From positions 1 to 64,000 of the forward strand of contig JAIEMG010000045.1 in assembly GCA_019752375.1 (NCBI GenBank): a DNA stretch of 64,000 bases, in the 5' to 3' direction. The notes under the pieces were generated by a model. That model saw only the letters and a list, made by a program, of their open reading frames with translations, was not told the origin of the DNA and did no database searches. This DNA comes from Gemmataceae bacterium. GTDB taxonomy: Bacteria; Planctomycetota; Planctomycetia; Gemmatales; Gemmataceae. Below, piece by piece: positions 29,800 through 59,127 of this stretch (positions are counted from its first letter, which is position 1; each line of letters starts with the position of its first letter). The position numbers and the translations under genes are program-made.

Positions 29800-29880
<81 letters not shown>

Positions 29881-30063: not shown

Positions 30064-31161
30064 GTGCCACGATCCCCCAAACCCTTCCCCTGGCGCGACG
30101 GCTGGTACACCGACGCAGGCGGCACGCGCACGTTCCTGCTGCCCCGAACCGCCAGCCGCAGGGACGCCGAAGCCGAACTCCGCAAGCTGCTTGACGAGCG
30201 GGAACAGAGCGGCTCCATCATCAATCCGAACCTGACTGTGGCCGAGTTGTCGGCCCTCTTTCTGGAGATGGTCCAAGCCGAGAAAGCCCCGACCACCTAC
30301 CTCACTTACCAGCGGTGGCTCACCGAGTTCAGCAAGGAACACGGTGCGAAGTTGGTGCGGCGCGTCACCCGCCACGACGCCCAGCGGTTCAAGGCCAAGG
30401 TGATGAAGGCCATCAACCCTCGCACGGACAAGCCCTACAAGCCGAAGACCGTCAACCACGCCCTGATCGCCCTGAAGCGCTGCTGGAATTGGGCCAAGGA
30501 CGCCGAACTCATCACCTGCCGAAACCCGTTCGCGGGCATCCCCATGCTTCCTGCCGATGGACGGCAGCGGATCGCCACGGACGACGAGTTTCGGGCGCTG
30601 CTGCGGCACAGTGACGCCCTGTTCCGCCAGGTGTTGCTGTGCTTCCGCTACCTGCCGATCCGCCCGCAAGACTTGCGAACGCTCCAGTGGGAAGGCCAGA
30701 ACTACGTCGATTTCACCAACCACTGCTGGGTGATCCGCAGGCACAAGACCTACCTAACCAGCAAGCAGAAGAAAGCACGAATTATCCTGATGCCGCCGCC
30801 TGTCGAGAACCTGCTGTTGTGGCGGAAAAAGAACTACCCCGACAGCACCCACGTCTTCTTGAACGAGGACGGCAACCCCTGGAAGAAGGACGCCCTGTGC
30901 CTCCGAATGCGGCGGTTGCGCGAACGGGCGGGCATCAAGGCCGACGCCAACGGCGAGGAGTTCGTCCTGTACACCAACCGCCACACCTACTGCACACGGT
31001 CGGCGGCGGTGATGAGCGGCCCCGAACTCCAGGCGCTCGCGGGGCACTCCGAGTACCGCACGACCGAACGCTACGTTCACCTGGCCCAGCAGAAGAAGTT
31101 GCTCGCGGACGCCGCAGGCAAGGCAGCCGAGGCGATGCGGCTTCACAGCCCAGGCAAGTGA
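30064..31161 (+). CDS. Tyrosine-type site-specific integrase
   Basis: 365 residues from a GTG at 30064 preceded by GGAGGTGCATCC. An N-terminal SAM-like domain (about 60-160) is followed by the catalytic domain: YLPIRPQDLRTLQW (Arg), HKTYLTSKQKKAR (Lys), then TNRHTYCTRSA, AGHSEYRTTERYVHL (His and nucleophile Tyr). The usual HxLRH reads as a diverged TNRHTYCTR. Located beside tRNA-Pro and followed by a convergent excisionase-like gene overlapping its end by 19 bp. Confidence 0.9.
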   Translation: MPRSPKPFPWRDGWYTDAGGTRTFLLPRTASRRDAEAELRKLLDEREQSGSIINPNLTVAELSALFLEMVQAEKAPTTYLTYQRWLTEFSKEHGAKLVRRVTRHDAQRFKAKVMKAINPRTDKPYKPKTVNHALIALKRCWNWAKDAELITCRNPFAGIPMLPADGRQRIATDDEFRALLRHSDALFRQVLLCFRYLPIRPQDLRTLQWEGQNYVDFTNHCWVIRRHKTYLTSKQKKARIILMPPPVENLLLWRKKNYPDSTHVFLNEDGNPWKKDALCLRMRRLRERAGIKADANGEEFVLYTNRHTYCTRSAAVMSGPELQALAGHSEYRTTERYVHLAQQKKLLADAAGKAAEAMRLHSPGK

Positions 31162-46422: not shown

Positions 46423-47532
46423 ATGAACAGCACGATGATTGCCGAGAAACGGCAGAAGCGACAGCAGAAGGTAAACGCCAAGCGAAAACACCAGGAACAG
46501 GTCCGCAAGGCGGCCCGCTACCCCTTGTTCGCGTTCGAGCCGAACGACGCGCCGCCCGCTTTCGTCGCGGCGGTGCGGGAAGCCGTGGCCACGATCAACT
46601 TCGATGACCGAGCCGTGTTCGCTGCGTGGGAGCGGTCGGTCTACCAGGAAGTCAGGCGGGCAGGCTGGCACTCGGCTTCACGCTTTTTCGCCGCGCTGGA
46701 AAAGGCGGAGCATCCGCAGGCCACCGTCGCCCTGGTCGCCTTCTACGGGCACCTGGGCCAAGAAGTCTTCCGTCGCATCCCCGAAGCCGTGCTGCTCCAG
46801 TACATCCCGATCAACGACGTGCAGTTCTTGCCTGACGGCCAGGTAATTCGGGCCATCTTCCGCTCGCTGCGGCGGGCCAAGGGGCCGCACGGCACGGTGT
46901 ACTACTCGCGGCACCAGCCGACCGTCCTGGTGGATGGCGAAAAGAAAGTCGTCGCCTTCTCGATCCACGCCATCCAGCGCATTTGTGATCGGGTCTACCC
47001 CCGTTGGCGGAACTACCTGGCCTTGGGGGACGCCTTCGGCCTGTTTGACGAGTGCCAGGAGTTCGAGACGTGCGACCTCCACGGCGGTCAGGTCGGCTTC
47101 ACCTTCTTCGAGAACTGTGCCAAAGGCTTTTGGAACGAAGCGGTAGCCCAGGAAATCCTGGGGTCCGACTTCCGCGAAGACCAAAACTACGCGGTGCGGG
47201 TCGGCTACTGCCCCGCCGAGGTGGAAGGGAATTTCATCAAGGCCAAGACGTTTCTCTGCCCTGGCTATGGGAACACGCCCGAATTCACCGCCATCCTGCG
47301 GTCGGGGCTTCCCTACGCCGAGAAGCAGGCGCTCATCGAGCAATCCAGGTCGCTCGACGCACAAACCATATGGACCAACCACGATTGTTCGCTGCTCAAG
47401 TGGTTCCACGACCACGGCGTACCCCAGGTGGTTGGCCCCATACTTCACTCGGATGCCGTGACAGTGATGTTCCTGCCTGGGAATGCCGCTAATATGTCGC
47501 TTATTGCTTCAGCAGTTCGCGTTCCCCACTGA
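46423..47532 (+). CDS. Hypothetical protein of 369 residues
   Basis: Start preceded by GGGAG. Basic N-terminus (EKRQKRQQKVNAKRKHQEQV), then a well-ordered domain with HSASRFFAALEKAEHPQATV, YYSRHQPTVLVDGEKKVVAF and LGDAFGLFDECQEFETCDLH. The C-terminal 30 residues overlap the convergent nuclease gene by 88 bp. Function not recognised. Confidence 0.6.
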   Translation: MNSTMIAEKRQKRQQKVNAKRKHQEQVRKAARYPLFAFEPNDAPPAFVAAVREAVATINFDDRAVFAAWERSVYQEVRRAGWHSASRFFAALEKAEHPQATVALVAFYGHLGQEVFRRIPEAVLLQYIPINDVQFLPDGQVIRAIFRSLRRAKGPHGTVYYSRHQPTVLVDGEKKVVAFSIHAIQRICDRVYPRWRNYLALGDAFGLFDECQEFETCDLHGGQVGFTFFENCAKGFWNEAVAQEILGSDFREDQNYAVRVGYCPAEVEGNFIKAKTFLCPGYGNTPEFTAILRSGLPYAEKQALIEQSRSLDAQTIWTNHDCSLLKWFHDHGVPQVVGPILHSDAVTVMFLPGNAANMSLIASAVRVPH

Positions 47533-48494
47533 TTTGAAAGGGCGTAGGTGTTTTCAGCGGTCTTTATCAGGTCTTCGTCGGCCAAGAACCAGCGAGTCTC
47601 GTCAAGCCCATCGTCGGTCTGCTGGAGTCGCTCCACGAACTGTTGACCAGTAAGGAGTCCATTAGCCATGCGAAATAACCGTTGGTTCGGTCGCCAGGAA
47701 ATAGCCTCGGCGATCTGCTGCGGCGTTACACCTGAGCCGCACAAGTGCTTCACTATCAACAGCATCGCGTTACGTTTGTATTGACGCTCGTAAGTCTTTC
47801 CAGCAATGGAAACATCGAATCTTGTCAAATCCTTGGAGGAAGTACGGGCTTCCCTTTCTCGCTGCTGCTTTTCTTTGATCTGCACCTGGAACTCCTGGGC
47901 CTCTGGGAGTGGAATGATCGACTGAATATCGACCAGAACCCTCCCGTTGTCCTTGTAGGGCTTGATGCGGACGCAACGTATGTCCAACCCGTGATCGTTG
48001 AGCCAGAGTACCGCTGTCGTCAGTTCCTTGGAAAACTCTGCGGAGGCCAGCACGATCCGAACGTCCTGGGCAAAGCTGTCTTCGTTCGGGTCATCCCGCC
48101 CAAGGAATTGCAGGATAGAACTTCGCGGATCAAGGTTGCTGTTAATTTTCTTGAGGTACGCCCCGTAGACTTCAATGACCTTCTCGAAGGTCATCGTTGA
48201 AACCATCGCAGCGTAGCGAATGGCCTGCAAGTCCATGTGCCCGCCATCTTCTGTCCTTTTAAGTTCGATGACTACCAAGTTGGCGTCTTTGTCCAGCCCC
48301 AGCAGGTCGATGCGGCGCTTGGCGTCTTCCCACTCACCGAATTCTTCTGCAATGACTAGCGTTTCGGGGGAGATAATCTCGATCTGGCTGCGAAGGAGGC
48401 GTTGAAGGTCGGCGCGTTCCTTGATGCCTGCCTCGCTGAATGACGTTTCGGCAATCTTGCGAATCTGATCGGTAGCGATTTCGTAGATGGGCAT
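47445..48494 (-). CDS. NucS-like / PD-(D/E)XK nuclease-fold protein
   Basis: 349 residues from MPIYEIATDQIRKIAETSFS at 48494 (AAGGGA upstream). Nuclease core: LVIAEEFGEWEDAKRRIDLL followed by LVVIELKRTEDGGHMDLQAI, that is D-x(n)-ExK, then the helix AIRYAAMVSTMTF. The C-terminal part ends TYALSNQWGTRTAEAISDIL. Likely DNA nuclease, perhaps for repair or defence. Convergent overlap of 88 bp with its neighbour. Confidence 0.65.
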   Translation of the reverse strand: MPIYEIATDQIRKIAETSFSEAGIKERADLQRLLRSQIEIISPETLVIAEEFGEWEDAKRRIDLLGLDKDANLVVIELKRTEDGGHMDLQAIRYAAMVSTMTFEKVIEVYGAYLKKINSNLDPRSSILQFLGRDDPNEDSFAQDVRIVLASAEFSKELTTAVLWLNDHGLDIRCVRIKPYKDNGRVLVDIQSIIPLPEAQEFQVQIKEKQQREREARTSSKDLTRFDVSIAGKTYERQYKRNAMLLIVKHLCGSGVTPQQIAEAISWRPNQRLFRMANGLLTGQQFVERLQQTDDGLDETRWFLADEDLIKTAENTYALSNQWGTRTAEAISDILAAFPGRNITVTASE

Positions 48495-48696
48495 GATCGT
48501 TCCCTTGCTGCGATGACTGCCACTCTCTCCAGTCGAACCATCGTGGCAGTCTACCTTTGCGGCAACTGGTCCGTCAAGGACGGCAGCGGGGAACGGGCTT
48601 GTGATGAGGCGTGGGAACGAAATAGCCCCGCCCAACCAGGACGGCCAGGCGGGGCTTCACGTCATTCCCTGAAAGTAGTGCCCGCGATTCCCGCCG

Positions 48697-48864
48697 TCAA
48701 AAGCAGCCCGTGTTGCGGCAGCACTTCTTGAACCGCCTGCCCGAACCGCATGGGCACAGGTCATCGCGGCCCAGCTTTTCGGTCAGTTCCTTGGTGCCGT
48801 GGACGAGGCGCACGCCTCGTTTCACCCGCGTCTCGCTGGGGAACCCGCGTCGGCGCTTGCTCAT
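48697..48864 (-). CDS. SEC-C motif small protein
   Basis: 55 residues. C-terminal [15 protein letters not shown] is the SEC-C zinc motif, as at the end of SecA and in many small proteins. The N-terminus is basic ([17 protein letters not shown]). No SecA context; a stand-alone metal-binding protein. Confidence 0.7.
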
Positions 48865-48980
48865 CGTCTCGAAAAAAACGGCTGGTCGGCCTGGTCCTGG
48901 TGATCCATGATCCACCGCCTTTCTGGATTCGGGGCGAGTCCTGGGGTGGGACACTACGGGGGTGGGAGGGGTTCGTGGCG

Positions 48981-50888
48981 TCACGCGCGAGTTTCGATAT
49001 TCTTCTGGCCTGGACGATAAACAGACAGTCCTGCGCTCGATGCCGTCAATCTCGTCAGCCGCGATTTGAGAAGGGGCCGTCGAGCCGTTTCGCAGGCGAG
49101 CATTGCCTTTTCCACGAATCGTTGCCTTACTTGCGCACTTCGGCACTTCGCCAACACTTCTAGTTCGTAAAGCCGATCAATCATCACCTCGTCGGTGATA
49201 TTATCGAAGAGGTTGTTAAGATGCTCAATGGCTCGCGCCTCTTCAAATAACAGGCTGTGGAGGAAACGCCCGATCCTGTTCAACCGTGGATCGGAGGCGA
49301 ACACAAGTCCTCGCACCACAGGCTCAAGCGAGTCTCGGTTCAGTTGAGATAACGGATGGACCAAAGCACGTTTTACTTCGGTGCCTCGTTCCTTGTTGTA
49401 GAGTCGCAAAAGCCAAGCAAGTTCCCGATTACCAAGCGGTTTAAGGGCCAACAACAGAGCCGCTTGCTGGCGCACATACCAATGCGCGGTCTTGCTCTTC
49501 AGCCGCGACTTCGCCTGCTCCCATCCTTGCGAGGGGATGTTACGCATGTAGCGCAATGTCATCAAAAGATGTGCCTCTTGATAGGGGAATAGCTCATCGG
49601 GTCGTGATAACAGGCGACCCAACCGCGTGCTTATGCGTGAACGGTTGCCGTCCTGAACCCGTAAATAGCGAACGGCACTATTCAGGAGGCGGGAATCGGG
49701 ATTGCGGTCTAACTGGTCGAGTACAGGGGAGACGATAGTGGAACTCCGCAGCGTCGTGAACGCCGTAATCAAACGCCGAAACAGACGAAGCTCCTTGTCG
49801 CGGATCACTCCTTTGCGACCTCGCAGTTGACGGTACACTTCCTTCAGGGAGTCAATGAATTCTGCACGCTTCCCAGCGGTCACGTTCTTGTTCTTCTGGA
49901 TGGCCTTGATGAGGTTATTCGTGCGGTCAAGCCGCTCGTCAAATAGCTCCGCATGGATTTCGCCTTCCTCAAAGATGCGGGTCTTCGATCCCTGAATGTT
50001 GAGTCGCAGTCCGCGCAAGTGGTCATTCATCAGGAACAGAGCTTCGCGGGCGGTCGCCCGATCCTTTGCAAGCACCTTCACGTCATCCATGTAGCGAAGG
50101 TACTTAACGTCCTTGCGCCGAGCAAACGCCGCAAATGCCTGATCGAGTGGAAGCAGGTAGATGTTGCCAAGGAAGCTGCTCATCCCATTTCCCTGCGGAA
50201 TGCCTCGCGGCGCGGGGGAACCGTGCAGCGTGGGCCAAGTCCAATACTCCAAGAGGCCAATGAGGAAATTCACCAGGCGTGGCTGGCGCGGTAGATGTTG
50301 AAGAAGAAGGTCACGGAGCAAGCCGAGATCAACGTTTTCAAAGTAGGCGACAATATCCGAGGAAACAAGAAAACGGTAGCCTTCCTTTTCGTAAGCGGTT
50401 TCAAGGCTAGCAAGAAACTCAGGCCAAAGTGCGTACCACGGTTCCACAAGTTCCAGTTCACGTTGGATCGTCTTCCGCTTTAGAAACGGAAATGAAAGCA
50501 GTTCGTGATCGTGGAACAAATCGTCCCGTTTAGCCTGGGGCTTGACACGCCAGGAGTAAACTGCTTCGGGAAGCTTTTTGTCGAGCGGTGGGGCAATGAG
50601 GCAAGCGATTGCAAACAGTACGATCTTATCTTCTATCGACACGACCGTTCCAGGCCGTACTGACAGCGTGGACTTCGGTACGTCGATCAGCAAGAGCGGA
50701 TTGGGGTGGTAGCTTCCACGGGCCAGGCTCTCAGAGAGATGCGATAGATGCTCCTCAAGACGGAAGGCGAAGTCGGAGAAACGAAAGGGATCGAACATGA
50801 AATCGGTGCGCGAGTCATTGCGTGCGAGATGCCATGCCCGCCGCAGCAGGTTCGGATGGGACAATTTCTGGTAGAGGTCGGCGGTCAC
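48981..50888 (-). CDS. Reverse transcriptase with long helical C-terminus (Abi/UG-like)
   Basis: 635 residues from a GTG at 50888. RT palm motifs: [12 protein letters not shown] with Asp178, [11 protein letters not shown] at 228-238, YLRYMDDV with YMDD at 266-269, and [11 protein letters not shown] after it. No group II maturase or HNH domain is seen, and the intergenic DNA carries no intron-like flanks that I can recognise. Residues about 320-620 are repeated helices ([39 protein letters not shown]), HEAT-like. This matches the unknown-group/abortive-infection RTs that act in phage defence; the subtype cannot be assigned. Confidence 0.75.
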
Positions 50889-51084
50889 GAATCACCTTAG
50901 AGGTGCTGCTCTCGGCGTCTGTACTGACCGTGAGGTAGTAGAGCGTGCGGCAGGTGACATCGACCGTTCTGCTGCTGCATTCCTGCCCACACTCGGCCCA
51001 GGTGAGGCGGTCGTAATCGGAGTCGATATTCCCATACCCCTTTCCATCCAGATTCGCCAACCGTTTCACAAGCCCGACTCTCAA
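50815..51084 (-). CDS. Possible small ORF upstream of and overlapping the RT
   Basis: 89 codons from a TTG, containing TWAECGQECSSRTVDVTCRT with three cysteines, overlapping the RT start by 74 bp. No convincing start signal. If it is not coding, this region would be the RT's 5' leader or a non-coding RNA. Confidence 0.25.
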   Translation of the reverse strand: MRVGLVKRLANLDGKGYGNIDSDYDRLTWAECGQECSSRTVDVTCRTLYYLTVSTDAESSTSKVIRDRRPLPEIVPSEPAAAGMASRTQ

Positions 51085-51111
51085 GGCCCCAATTATCAGA
51101 CGTACTGGTCA

Positions 51112-51363
51112 TTGCCGAAGTCACTCACCAAGAGTCAGCCTTGCTCTTTGGCGGATGTCGTGGTGACACTGATTGAGTGTGGTGACGGAAAGTACCGCCT
51201 CCCAAACGGCGAAGAGAAAACTGGCCCGACAGCACGAATTCAGTTGGACGGTGAGAGTCGCACTGTAGGACAGGCGAGTGTCGTTACCGTTGGTGACTCG
51301 GAGTGGGAAATCCAAGACATCAATGTCAAGCAATGCATTGTCACCTGGAAACGAGTCTCGTAA
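51112..51363 (+). CDS. Hypothetical small beta-rich protein
   Basis: 83 codons from a TTG. VVVTLIECGDGKYRLPNGEE, then SEWEIQDINVKQCIVTWKRV reads as strands. No ribosome-binding site; 16 bp before the next gene. Moderate doubt. Confidence 0.4.
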   Translation: MPKSLTKSQPCSLADVVVTLIECGDGKYRLPNGEEKTGPTARIQLDGESRTVGQASVVTVGDSEWEIQDINVKQCIVTWKRVS

Positions 51364-54489: not shown

Positions 54490-55401
54490 ATGGCCAGCCA
54501 GAGCGAAATCCGCGAGCGTGTGACGACCGAAATTATCGAGGCGCTGAAAAAGGGCGTCGTCCCCTGGCGCAAGCCGTGGTCGCCTGCTGGGAACACGGGC
54601 TTCCCGAAAAACGTCGTAAGCCAAAAGAACTACTCTGGCGTCAATCGGCTGCTGCTCACCTGCGCCGCCATGAAGAAGGGCTACCAGAGCCAGTGGTGGG
54701 GTACGTTCCGACAGTGGCAGCAGCGAGGCTGTCGGGTGCGCCAAAGGCCGCACGACGTTGATCCTGGGCATTGGGGCAGCCGCATCATCTTTTACCAGAA
54801 CTTGACCACGACCGTTACCAACCAGGACGGCGACGAGGTGGAACGCACCTTCCCGCTGCTCAAGGAATTCTGCGTCTTCAACGCCGAGCAGGTCGATGGA
54901 GCCGAGGCGTTCCACGCCGAAGCCAAGGGTGAAGCATCAGCGACTCCTGACTTCGAGCCAGCAGAGAAGGCCATCGCCGCCACGGGCGCGGACCTTCGGA
55001 TCATCGCAGGCGACAAGGCTTGCTACTACCGCCCACCGCTCGACTACATCCAGATACCGCCCAAGGCACAGTTCGAGGAAGGGGCTGGCGGTCTGGCCGA
55101 GTGGTACTCCACGGCACTGCATGAACTTGCTCACTGGTCCGAGGTCCGACTGAACTGGAAGGGCAGCTATGGCCTGGGGGAACTGCGGGCAGAAATGGCG
55201 GCGTGCTTCATGTGCGCAGAACTTGCCATCCCAAATCACAACCCGACCGAGAACCACGCCGCCTACCTCGACAACTGGATCAAGACGATCAGCGAGGACT
55301 ATCGGGCCATCTTTAAGATTTCCAGCAGCGCCAACGCTGCCGCCGACTACATCCTGGCGTTCAGCCGTGAAGTGAAGGTGGAAGGGGACGAGGCCGCATG
55401 A
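54490..55401 (+). CDS. ArdC-like antirestriction / zincin protein
   Basis: 303 residues from the ATG at 54490. N-terminal ArdC ssDNA-binding domain (EIIEALKKGVVPWRKPWSPA; YSGVNRLLLT; WWGTFRQWQQRGCRVRQ), then a zincin domain with STALHELAHWS (HExxH) and LRAEMAACFMCAEL. ArdC proteins protect incoming plasmid DNA from restriction during conjugation. First gene of a plus-strand run, each preceded by the recurrent motif. Confidence 0.88.
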   Translation: MASQSEIRERVTTEIIEALKKGVVPWRKPWSPAGNTGFPKNVVSQKNYSGVNRLLLTCAAMKKGYQSQWWGTFRQWQQRGCRVRQRPHDVDPGHWGSRIIFYQNLTTTVTNQDGDEVERTFPLLKEFCVFNAEQVDGAEAFHAEAKGEASATPDFEPAEKAIAATGADLRIIAGDKACYYRPPLDYIQIPPKAQFEEGAGGLAEWYSTALHELAHWSEVRLNWKGSYGLGELRAEMAACFMCAELAIPNHNPTENHAAYLDNWIKTISEDYRAIFKISSSANAAADYILAFSREVKVEGDEAA

Positions 55402-56669: not shown

Positions 56670-56700
56670 AGGCGCGTGGATCATGCCAGAAGGGGAAGTC

Positions 56701-57654
56701 ATGGCCGAACATCATGAAATCAACGCCGTTGCACCGTCCAGCCTGAAACACATCGTCGGCCAGGCGTCCGTGAAGGCCCAGGTGGAAGTCGCCCTGGACG
56801 CCGCCCACCAGGACGCCAAGAAGTTCGATTCGGCCTTGCTGGTCGGCGGTCCTGGGCTGGGCAAGAGCGCGATGGCCAAAGTCATCGCGGACGAAATGGC
56901 GACGGGATACCACGAAGTCATCGGGCAAAGCATCAAGTTCAGCAGCGATCTGAACGCGCTGCTCCTGGGTGCCAAGGACCGCGACGTGTGCCACATTGAC
57001 GAGTGCCACGAAATGCCGAAGCAACTGCAAACGGCGCTCTACCTGGCACTCGATCAGCGGAAGCTGTTCGTGCCTGGTCCGAAGGGCAAGCCGCAGAGCA
57101 TACCGATTGCCGACTTCAGCTTGTTGCTCAGCACGACGGACGAATACTGCTTGCTCCAGCCGCTCAGGGACCGCATGAAGCTCGTCCTCCGCTTCGACTT
57201 CTACACGGACGAAGAACTGACCACGGTGTTGCACCAGCGAAGTCAGGCGCTCGGCTGGGCAGTCGAAGCCGAAGTGCAGCCGCTTATTGCACAGCGGGCA
57301 CGGGGAACGCCACGACTGGCGCTGCGACTTCTCCAGTCGTGTCGTCGTGTCTGTCGCGCTGAAGGCAGCAAGACCATCAGGCTTGAACATTTGGAAAAAG
57401 CCTGCGGCCTGGAAACCATCGACGCCCTCGGCCTGGGGCCAACTGAGCAGCAGTACCTTCGTATCCTCGGTGAAGGGCCGACCCGCCTGAACGTCATCGC
57501 GTCGATGATGGGCCTGCCAGCGAGGACGGTCAGCCAGGTCACGGAGCCGTTCCTGATTCGGGTCGGGCTGCTGGTGAAGGACGATCAGGGCAAGCGCTGC
57601 CTGACCGCCAAGGGTCGGGATCACCTGTCAAAGAGCGGTCCACAACGCGACTAA
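56701..57654 (+). CDS. RuvB-like AAA+ ATPase
   Basis: 317 residues from the ATG at 56701 (AAGGGGAAG at the right distance, preferred over ATG 56683). Walker A GGPGLGKSA, Walker B VCHIDECHEM, sensor LLLSTTDEY, arginine finger region PLRDRMKLVLRFDFY, then a C-terminal winged helix (TRLNVIASMMGLPARTVSQV). Matches the RuvB branch-migration helicase layout, but with DECH instead of DEIH; chromosomal RuvB is expected elsewhere. Likely serves recombination of the element. Confidence 0.85.
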   Translation: MAEHHEINAVAPSSLKHIVGQASVKAQVEVALDAAHQDAKKFDSALLVGGPGLGKSAMAKVIADEMATGYHEVIGQSIKFSSDLNALLLGAKDRDVCHIDECHEMPKQLQTALYLALDQRKLFVPGPKGKPQSIPIADFSLLLSTTDEYCLLQPLRDRMKLVLRFDFYTDEELTTVLHQRSQALGWAVEAEVQPLIAQRARGTPRLALRLLQSCRRVCRAEGSKTIRLEHLEKACGLETIDALGLGPTEQQYLRILGEGPTRLNVIASMMGLPARTVSQVTEPFLIRVGLLVKDDQGKRCLTAKGRDHLSKSGPQRD

Positions 57655-58215: not shown

Positions 58216-59127
58216 ATGAAGAATTCGGGCGATAAGGTTTTCCAGGGCATCCCTGTCGGAGAGCGGGAGCCGTCCTTGTTCGCTGACTTCCTTTCGGCGC
58301 ACGACTTCGCGCCGCCCACCCGCAAGGCGCTGAGGAGCGACCTGCGGAAGTTCGCCAAGTGGTTCAGCGCCGCCAACAAGGAACTGTTCAGGGTCGAGCG
58401 GGTCACGTTGCGGGACGTGGCCGATTTTCGGGATCACCTGCGCCGCGACCAAGGCCAGGCCGTCGCCAGCGTGAATCGCGCTCTGGTCAGCCTGCGGCGT
58501 TTCTTCGGCTGGCTTGCCGATCAGGGCCACGTCGCCGCCAACCCCGCCGACGCCGTGAAGGAGCTTCGCCGCGTTCCACTTGCCCCAAAAGGGATGGAAC
58601 GGTCCCAGGTTCGCCGTCTGCTGCGAGAACTGGAACTGCGGCAGGACGTGCGGGCGAACGCCATCTTCCATGTGCTGCTCTACACGGGATGCCGCGTCAG
58701 CGATCTGGTAAACTTGGAGCTTGCAGACCTGCTCCTGGCCGAGCGGAGCGCCACTGTGGTCTTCAGATTCGGGAAGGGGAACAAACAGCGGTCGGTGCCA
58801 CTGCCGCTGCCTGCTCGACGCGCCCTGCAAGCCTACCTGGACACTCGCCCGCCACTGGAGAGCAAGAGGGTCTTTGTCGGAGAAAGGGGCGCACTGACTG
58901 ACCGTGGCGTGCGGGCGCTTTGCGATAAATATGCTGCGATCCTGGGGATCAAGTTGTATCCCCACCTGCTTCGGCACACGATGGCGCACCAGTACCTTGC
59001 GGATAACGGCAACGATCTGGTGGGCCTGGCGCAAGTCCTGGGGCATGAGAACTTGAACACGACGGCACGCTATACCAGAAGAACCAGCGAGCAGTTGGCT
59101 GAGTCCATCGGTAAAGTGAACTACTGA
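58216..59127 (+). CDS. XerC/D-like tyrosine recombinase
   Basis: 303 residues. N-terminal SAM-like domain ([20 protein letters not shown]). Catalytic residues all present: [11 protein letters not shown] (Arg), [11 protein letters not shown] (Lys), [12 protein letters not shown] (His, Arg), [15 protein letters not shown] (His and Tyr). Intact second recombinase in the island; could resolve dimers of an excised circle or mobilise this right-hand part. Confidence 0.92.

Follow-up and report, generated by a model that had tools for sequence, protein, structure and literature searches.

The stretch analysed here, the window, comprises the first 64,000 nucleotides of a contig from a Gemmataceae bacterium (JAIEMG010000045.1). 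Its reverse strand carries a gene for a reverse transcriptase (RT) whose catalytic core is followed by a long, predicted helical domain. The gene and its landmarks, its neighbours, and the boundaries of the element on which it lies are listed below.

29800-29875: tRNA-Pro, followed by a tyrosine recombinase
29832..29877 (+): attL, the 3' end of tRNA-Pro plus two bases beyond it; an exact 46-bp repeat
30064..31161 (+): tyrosine recombinase (integrase) adjoining attL; Pfam Phage_integrase, 1.8e-12
47445..48494 (-): PDC-S11, a NucS-like PD-(D/E)xK protein; PADLOC PDC-S11, 458 bits
48697..48864 (-): SEC-C zinc-motif protein of 55 aa, downstream of the RT; Pfam SEC-C, 6.6e-8
48981..50888 (-): UG21-group RT, 635 aa, GTG start; ORF call, RT_UG21 profile at 452 bits, Pfam, and tree
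49029..49940 (-): predicted C-terminal alpha-solenoid (HEAT-like/alphaRep), residues 317-620; AlphaFold2 pLDDT about 70-94, Foldseek matches to alphaRep/ARM proteins
50082..50093 (-): palm motif C, YMDD, residues 266-269; direct reading, D268 and D269 invariant across 13 related RTs
50187..50207 (-): RGIPQGN motif, residues 228-234; alignment of relatives, G233 invariant across 13 related RTs
50355..50357 (-): palm motif A, catalytic Asp178; alignment, invariant across 13 related RTs
50889..51111 (-): RT leader, 223 bp, intergenic to a divergent ORF at 51112-51363 (+)
Contig positions 77984-78029, beyond the 64-kb window: attR, an exact 46-bp copy of attL

The RT is intact: the ORF is full-length, the three catalytic aspartates and the YMDD box are in place, and the GTG start aligns with the start positions of relatives. 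A Pfam search of the protein returns RVT_1 at residues 163-306 (E=2e-13) and a sub-threshold HEAT_2 at 467-518, and no nitrilase, phosphohydrolase, HEPN, or maturase (GIIM) domain. An AlphaFold2 model, built from two sequences, predicts an all-helical solenoid over residues 317-620; its RT half (residues 1-316) has pLDDT below 50 and is unreliable. In Foldseek, the model resembles artificial alphaRep/HEAT proteins and ARM proteins, though weakly: the best E-value is 2.5e-3, and no match has E<=0.001. The original prediction had described intact palm motifs, about 300 residues of HEAT-like helices, and the lack of a maturase domain, and the ORF call, Pfam, the alignment, and the model bear out each element of that description. 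Compared with the RT of L012, a Desulfobacterales locus whose protein is 57% identical, the gene differs at the 3 codon positions by 0.40/0.25/0.68. These values fit a gene kept under selection, and on this comparison the gene is under constraint.

Profile and tree together assign the protein to UG21, a catalogued family, in place of the unknown class proposed earlier. The PADLOC profile RT_UG21 (PDLC03759) covers residues 13-522 and profile positions 5-479 of 503, and the next family, UG19, scores 194 bits. In a small maximum-likelihood tree of 16 rows, with UG19, DRT8, UG20, and group II among them, the Gemmataceae RT forms a clade of 4 rows with L012, L033, and L034 (support 95/95). Two further RTs, L010 and L041, were left out despite their scores against the UG21 profile; the L010 protein lacks YxDD and has a long branch. 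On the same profile, L012 scores 466 bits and L033 525 bits. The 57% overall identity to L012 rises to 66% over the RT domain; split in two, the protein is 68% identical over its RT half and 44% over its solenoid half. UG21 is listed by myRT as a class with few representatives, and in the literature we found no experimentally tested member.

The succession of an RT and a predicted alphaRep/HEAT-like solenoid would place the protein among the Class 1 (Abi-like) enzymes, and the placing of UG21 in UG/Abi Class 1 is one of architecture. The profile, the clade, and the predicted solenoid all speak for the earlier proposal of a UG/Abi-group RT whose C-terminus is helical. The fused nitrilase or phosphohydrolase of UG/Abi Class 3 (DRT1/DRT5) is absent, Pfam finding RVT_1 and the weak HEAT_2 only. 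Matches to NCBIfam models for group II, Drt2, Drt3a, Drt4, retron, and AbiA RTs are all below cutoff. A group II intron RT was rejected on the missing GIIM domain, a TIGR04416 score of 99.6 bits against a 300-bit cutoff, and separate placement in the tree; nearby, Rfam shows no intron family, and so no domains V/VI, at gathering threshold or at E<=1. A retron was likewise rejected, with retron_St85_RT at 30.8 bits against a cutoff of 235 and no Rfam match for an msr/msd RNA. The UG/DRT phylogeny that the original prediction had proposed as a check thus groups the RT with UG21 members, apart from the group II rows, and NCBIfam and Rfam separate it from the intron and retron enzymes that had been named as the outcomes contrary to a defence-type label.

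The RT is cargo of a 48.2-kb integrative element at tRNA-Pro that ends beyond the 64-kb window, because that length is bounded by two exact copies, 46 bp each, of the tRNA-Pro 3' end; the island suspected earlier is in this way delimited. At 0.61-0.62, the GC3 of the RT gene ranks with the lowest values of the element, whose mean is 0.725 (sd 0.065). The element also carries an ArdC-like anti-restriction protein (54490-55401; ArdcN and metallopeptidase domain, Pfam), a RuvB-like AAA ATPase (56683-57654), and a second tyrosine recombinase (58216-59127). Past the window but still on this element, kinase, PP2C phosphatase, and VWA genes stand in a row (L039 5-2558; contig 64005-66558), resembling a TerY-phosphorylation triad.

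Among 102 genomes of the same order, the Gemmataceae genome alone has a UG21 RT. Across the phylum, the UG21 profile matched at E<=1e-40 in 5 genomes out of 392; the other four score below the Gemmataceae RT, and UG20 or DRT8 is the better label for two of them. The RT was probably acquired horizontally, since it is carried on the tRNA-Pro element; this is also the simple reading of its solitary presence in the order while its relatives belong to Thermodesulfobacteriota. Searches of plasmids found distant RTs only, and searches of phages none; scans of viral contigs returned other RT classes (group II, DGR-like) or matches that were not RTs.

We consider the RT to be an AbiK/AbiA-like, template-independent, protein-primed UG21 polymerase acting in phage defence and carried on the tRNA-Pro element, a reading to which we give a probability of about 0.62. 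The chemistry is inferred from likeness: an RT with a solenoid, encoded by one gene with no ncRNA found, matches AbiK, Abi-P2, and AbiA. These enzymes make DNA without a template, and AbiK primes from its own tyrosine; the solved Abi RTs combine an RT with a helical domain, have no thumb, and are protein-primed and template-free (PMC9508834, PMC11077055). For Class 1 UG RTs, the published description agrees (PMC13174585). Sequence similarity to AbiK, Abi-P2, and AbiA is nevertheless low, and the C-terminal HEPN domain of AbiA was not found in the Gemmataceae protein. The defence settings in which its relatives sit lend the Abi-like reading further support.

In mechanistic terms, a palm/fingers core would be joined to an alpha-solenoid that probably replaces the thumb, and the protein would most likely form a homo-oligomer. 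During phage infection, it would make DNA without a nucleic-acid template, primed by one of its own residues, and the synthesis would block phage growth or kill the cell. The trigger may be tied to failed restriction, as for PrrC (PMC2610378, PMC12707154). As to the priming residue, the conserved Tyr and Ser positions of the UG21 clade fall in general RT motifs, and none is singled out.

The link to restriction comes from the relatives. We read the immediate neighbours at 12 loci of UG21, UG21-like, and UG19 RTs, the Gemmataceae locus included, a sample that is small and drawn by the searches and so describes a pattern, not a rate. Restriction-modification (R-M) genes touch the RT at 6 of the 12, arranged as follows.

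L012 (Desulfobacterales): YhcG nuclease, hsdS, RT; 2 bp between hsdS and RT
L033: RT, overlapping type III mod, later a res fragment
L038: SNF2 helicase, RT, Schlafen/AlbA_2, mod, res
L042, 2-3731: UG19 RT, hsdR; 13 bp
L057, 238-3604: hsdS, UG19 RT; 10 bp
L059, 310-3798: hsdS, UG19 RT; 6 bp

At all of these except L038, the RT and the R-M gene overlap or lie within 13 bp of each other. The L034 RT lies beside a GmrSD/DUF262 gene, and the Gemmataceae RT, L035, L036, L037, and L058 have no abutting R-M genes. An association with R-M genes was already on record for AbiA and AbiK (PMC8934634); new here is the repeated presence of UG21 and sister UG19 RTs inside R-M operons. The UG19 proteins of L042, L057, and L059 are sister-like, with a C-terminus of solenoid length. 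Compared with UG21 proteins they have about 60 extra residues, and at their C-terminal end stands a conserved R-x6-H stretch, in most of them RNxxPGSHPY, that recalls the HEPN of AbiA and is missing from the UG21 alignment rows; Pfam calls no HEPN domain in these three. Elsewhere, a UG20 RT (L008, G237:C122; 742 bits) lies beside a gene resembling a PglZ-type phosphatase, a neighbour read by eye.

This embedding suggests a back-up role like that of PrrC. A stronger version would make the UG21 and UG19 RTs guards of restriction: silent beside a type I or III R-M enzyme, they would act when a phage blocks it, the Gemmataceae copy working with an R-M system in trans or having lost its partner. 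The six abutting loci favour such a guard, as do the precedents of PrrC and RloC, the latter also found beside ArdC (PMC2610378, PMC12707154), the previous association of AbiA and AbiK with R-M genes, and the ArdC-like gene on the element of the Gemmataceae RT itself. PrrC and RloC, like the relatives of the Gemmataceae RT, are accessory genes in type I/III R-M loci, but they are anticodon nucleases and unrelated enzymes. Against the guard, PADLOC and Pfam place no R-M operon around the Gemmataceae RT within the 64-kb window; L012 and L033 lie within R-M operons whereas the planctomycete copy stands alone on its element. Half of the 12 loci lie outside R-M operons, and defence genes cluster generally. 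We regard the guard as a tentative possibility, on the unlikely side. The fuller proposal, of R-M back-up polymerases that stay silent until a phage inhibits R-M, with the Gemmataceae copy as a mobile version freed from the operon on an ardC-bearing element, is more doubtful still.

The RT might instead serve no function today and ride on the mobile element as a passenger that is silent or in decay. The copy is single and isolated, its relatives are few, and its GC3 departs from the element mean; against this, the full-length ORF, the intact catalytic residues, and the constrained codon-position differences make a passenger improbable.

The original prediction also raised an adjacent ncRNA template, which would make the RT Class 2-like: RTs such as DRT2, DRT9, and DRT10 share the YxDD palm of a defence-type enzyme and use ncRNAs encoded in cis (PMC12632851, PMC13174585). 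The 223-bp leader between divergent genes does offer room for one, and either it or the downstream gap, 48865-48980, could be the sequence copied. Against shuffled sequences, however, neither the leader (z -0.28 and +1.11) nor the gap (z +1.47) folds any better; Rfam gives no credible match over the RT locus, a mir-4856 match within the RT gene, well under the gathering threshold, being taken as chance; and BLAST finds no similarity between the flanks of the RT and those of L012, L033, and L034. The relatives' operons are also packed. In L012, the closest relative, the hsdS stop is at 2165 and the RT ATG at 2168, and the next ORF begins within the RT 3' end, which leaves the RT without intergenic space before or after it; in L033, the RT stop codon and the first codon of the type III mod gene overlap (TAATG), which leaves none downstream. 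The ORF that follows the RT in L012 (49 aa up to the contig end) matched nothing. Because of these null results and the packed operons, an adjacent conserved ncRNA is unlikely for the UG21 group, and the suggested search for conserved RNA structure in the leader and the gap yielded nothing beyond shuffles or common to relatives. With no conserved structured ncRNA found beside the RT, Class 2 (DRT2/9/10) was rejected as its class, and a Class 2-like mechanism for the Gemmataceae enzyme is quite improbable. The leader described earlier is present; the doubtful Cys-containing ORF reported with it (50815-51084) lies across the RT start in another reading frame, and Pfam assigns it to no family.

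The genes beside the RT had been proposed as its partners. SEC-C, NucS-like, and RibK-like neighbours are real ORFs, and the family names of two of them fall short in Pfam: NucS_C scores 21.1 against a cutoff of 24 on the NucS-like protein, and RibK/CTP-dep_RFKase 21.1 against 25 on the RibK-like gene, which is on the opposite strand. None of the three adjoins a relative's RT. The SEC-C motif is absent from the relatives' loci, and its linkage to the RT is not conserved. PDC-S11 is an independent neighbour: it also occurs in four further genomes of the same order, and those four yielded no UG21 RT and, in the flanks covered, no SEC-C. Upstream of its gene, 48495-48656 folds strongly (z -2.89) and a terminator-like stem spans 48656-48624; such sites are no commoner than chance. 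It is very improbable that the RT acts jointly with the SEC-C and NucS-like (PDC-S11) proteins as an undescribed cassette, for although the three ORFs follow one another on the same strand (48981-50888, 48697-48864, 47445-48494), they are separated by 116 and 202 bp with the terminator-like stem in the second gap, SEC-C is missing from the relatives' loci, PDC-S11 occurs elsewhere in the order without either partner in the sequence searched, and L012 (within the sequence covered) and L033 have the RT without both neighbours.

UG21 was a catalogued and sparsely sampled family, and the Gemmataceae copy adds to it a planctomycete protein that is complete and rides on a mobile element of known bounds. 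Together with the three UG21 relatives from another phylum, it shows a spread across phyla. The R-M embedding of the relatives sharpens the vague label of "defence RT," and their context merits a test at the bench. Their presence in type I and III R-M operons raises a testable question: whether template-free DNA synthesis may be wired to the failure of restriction.
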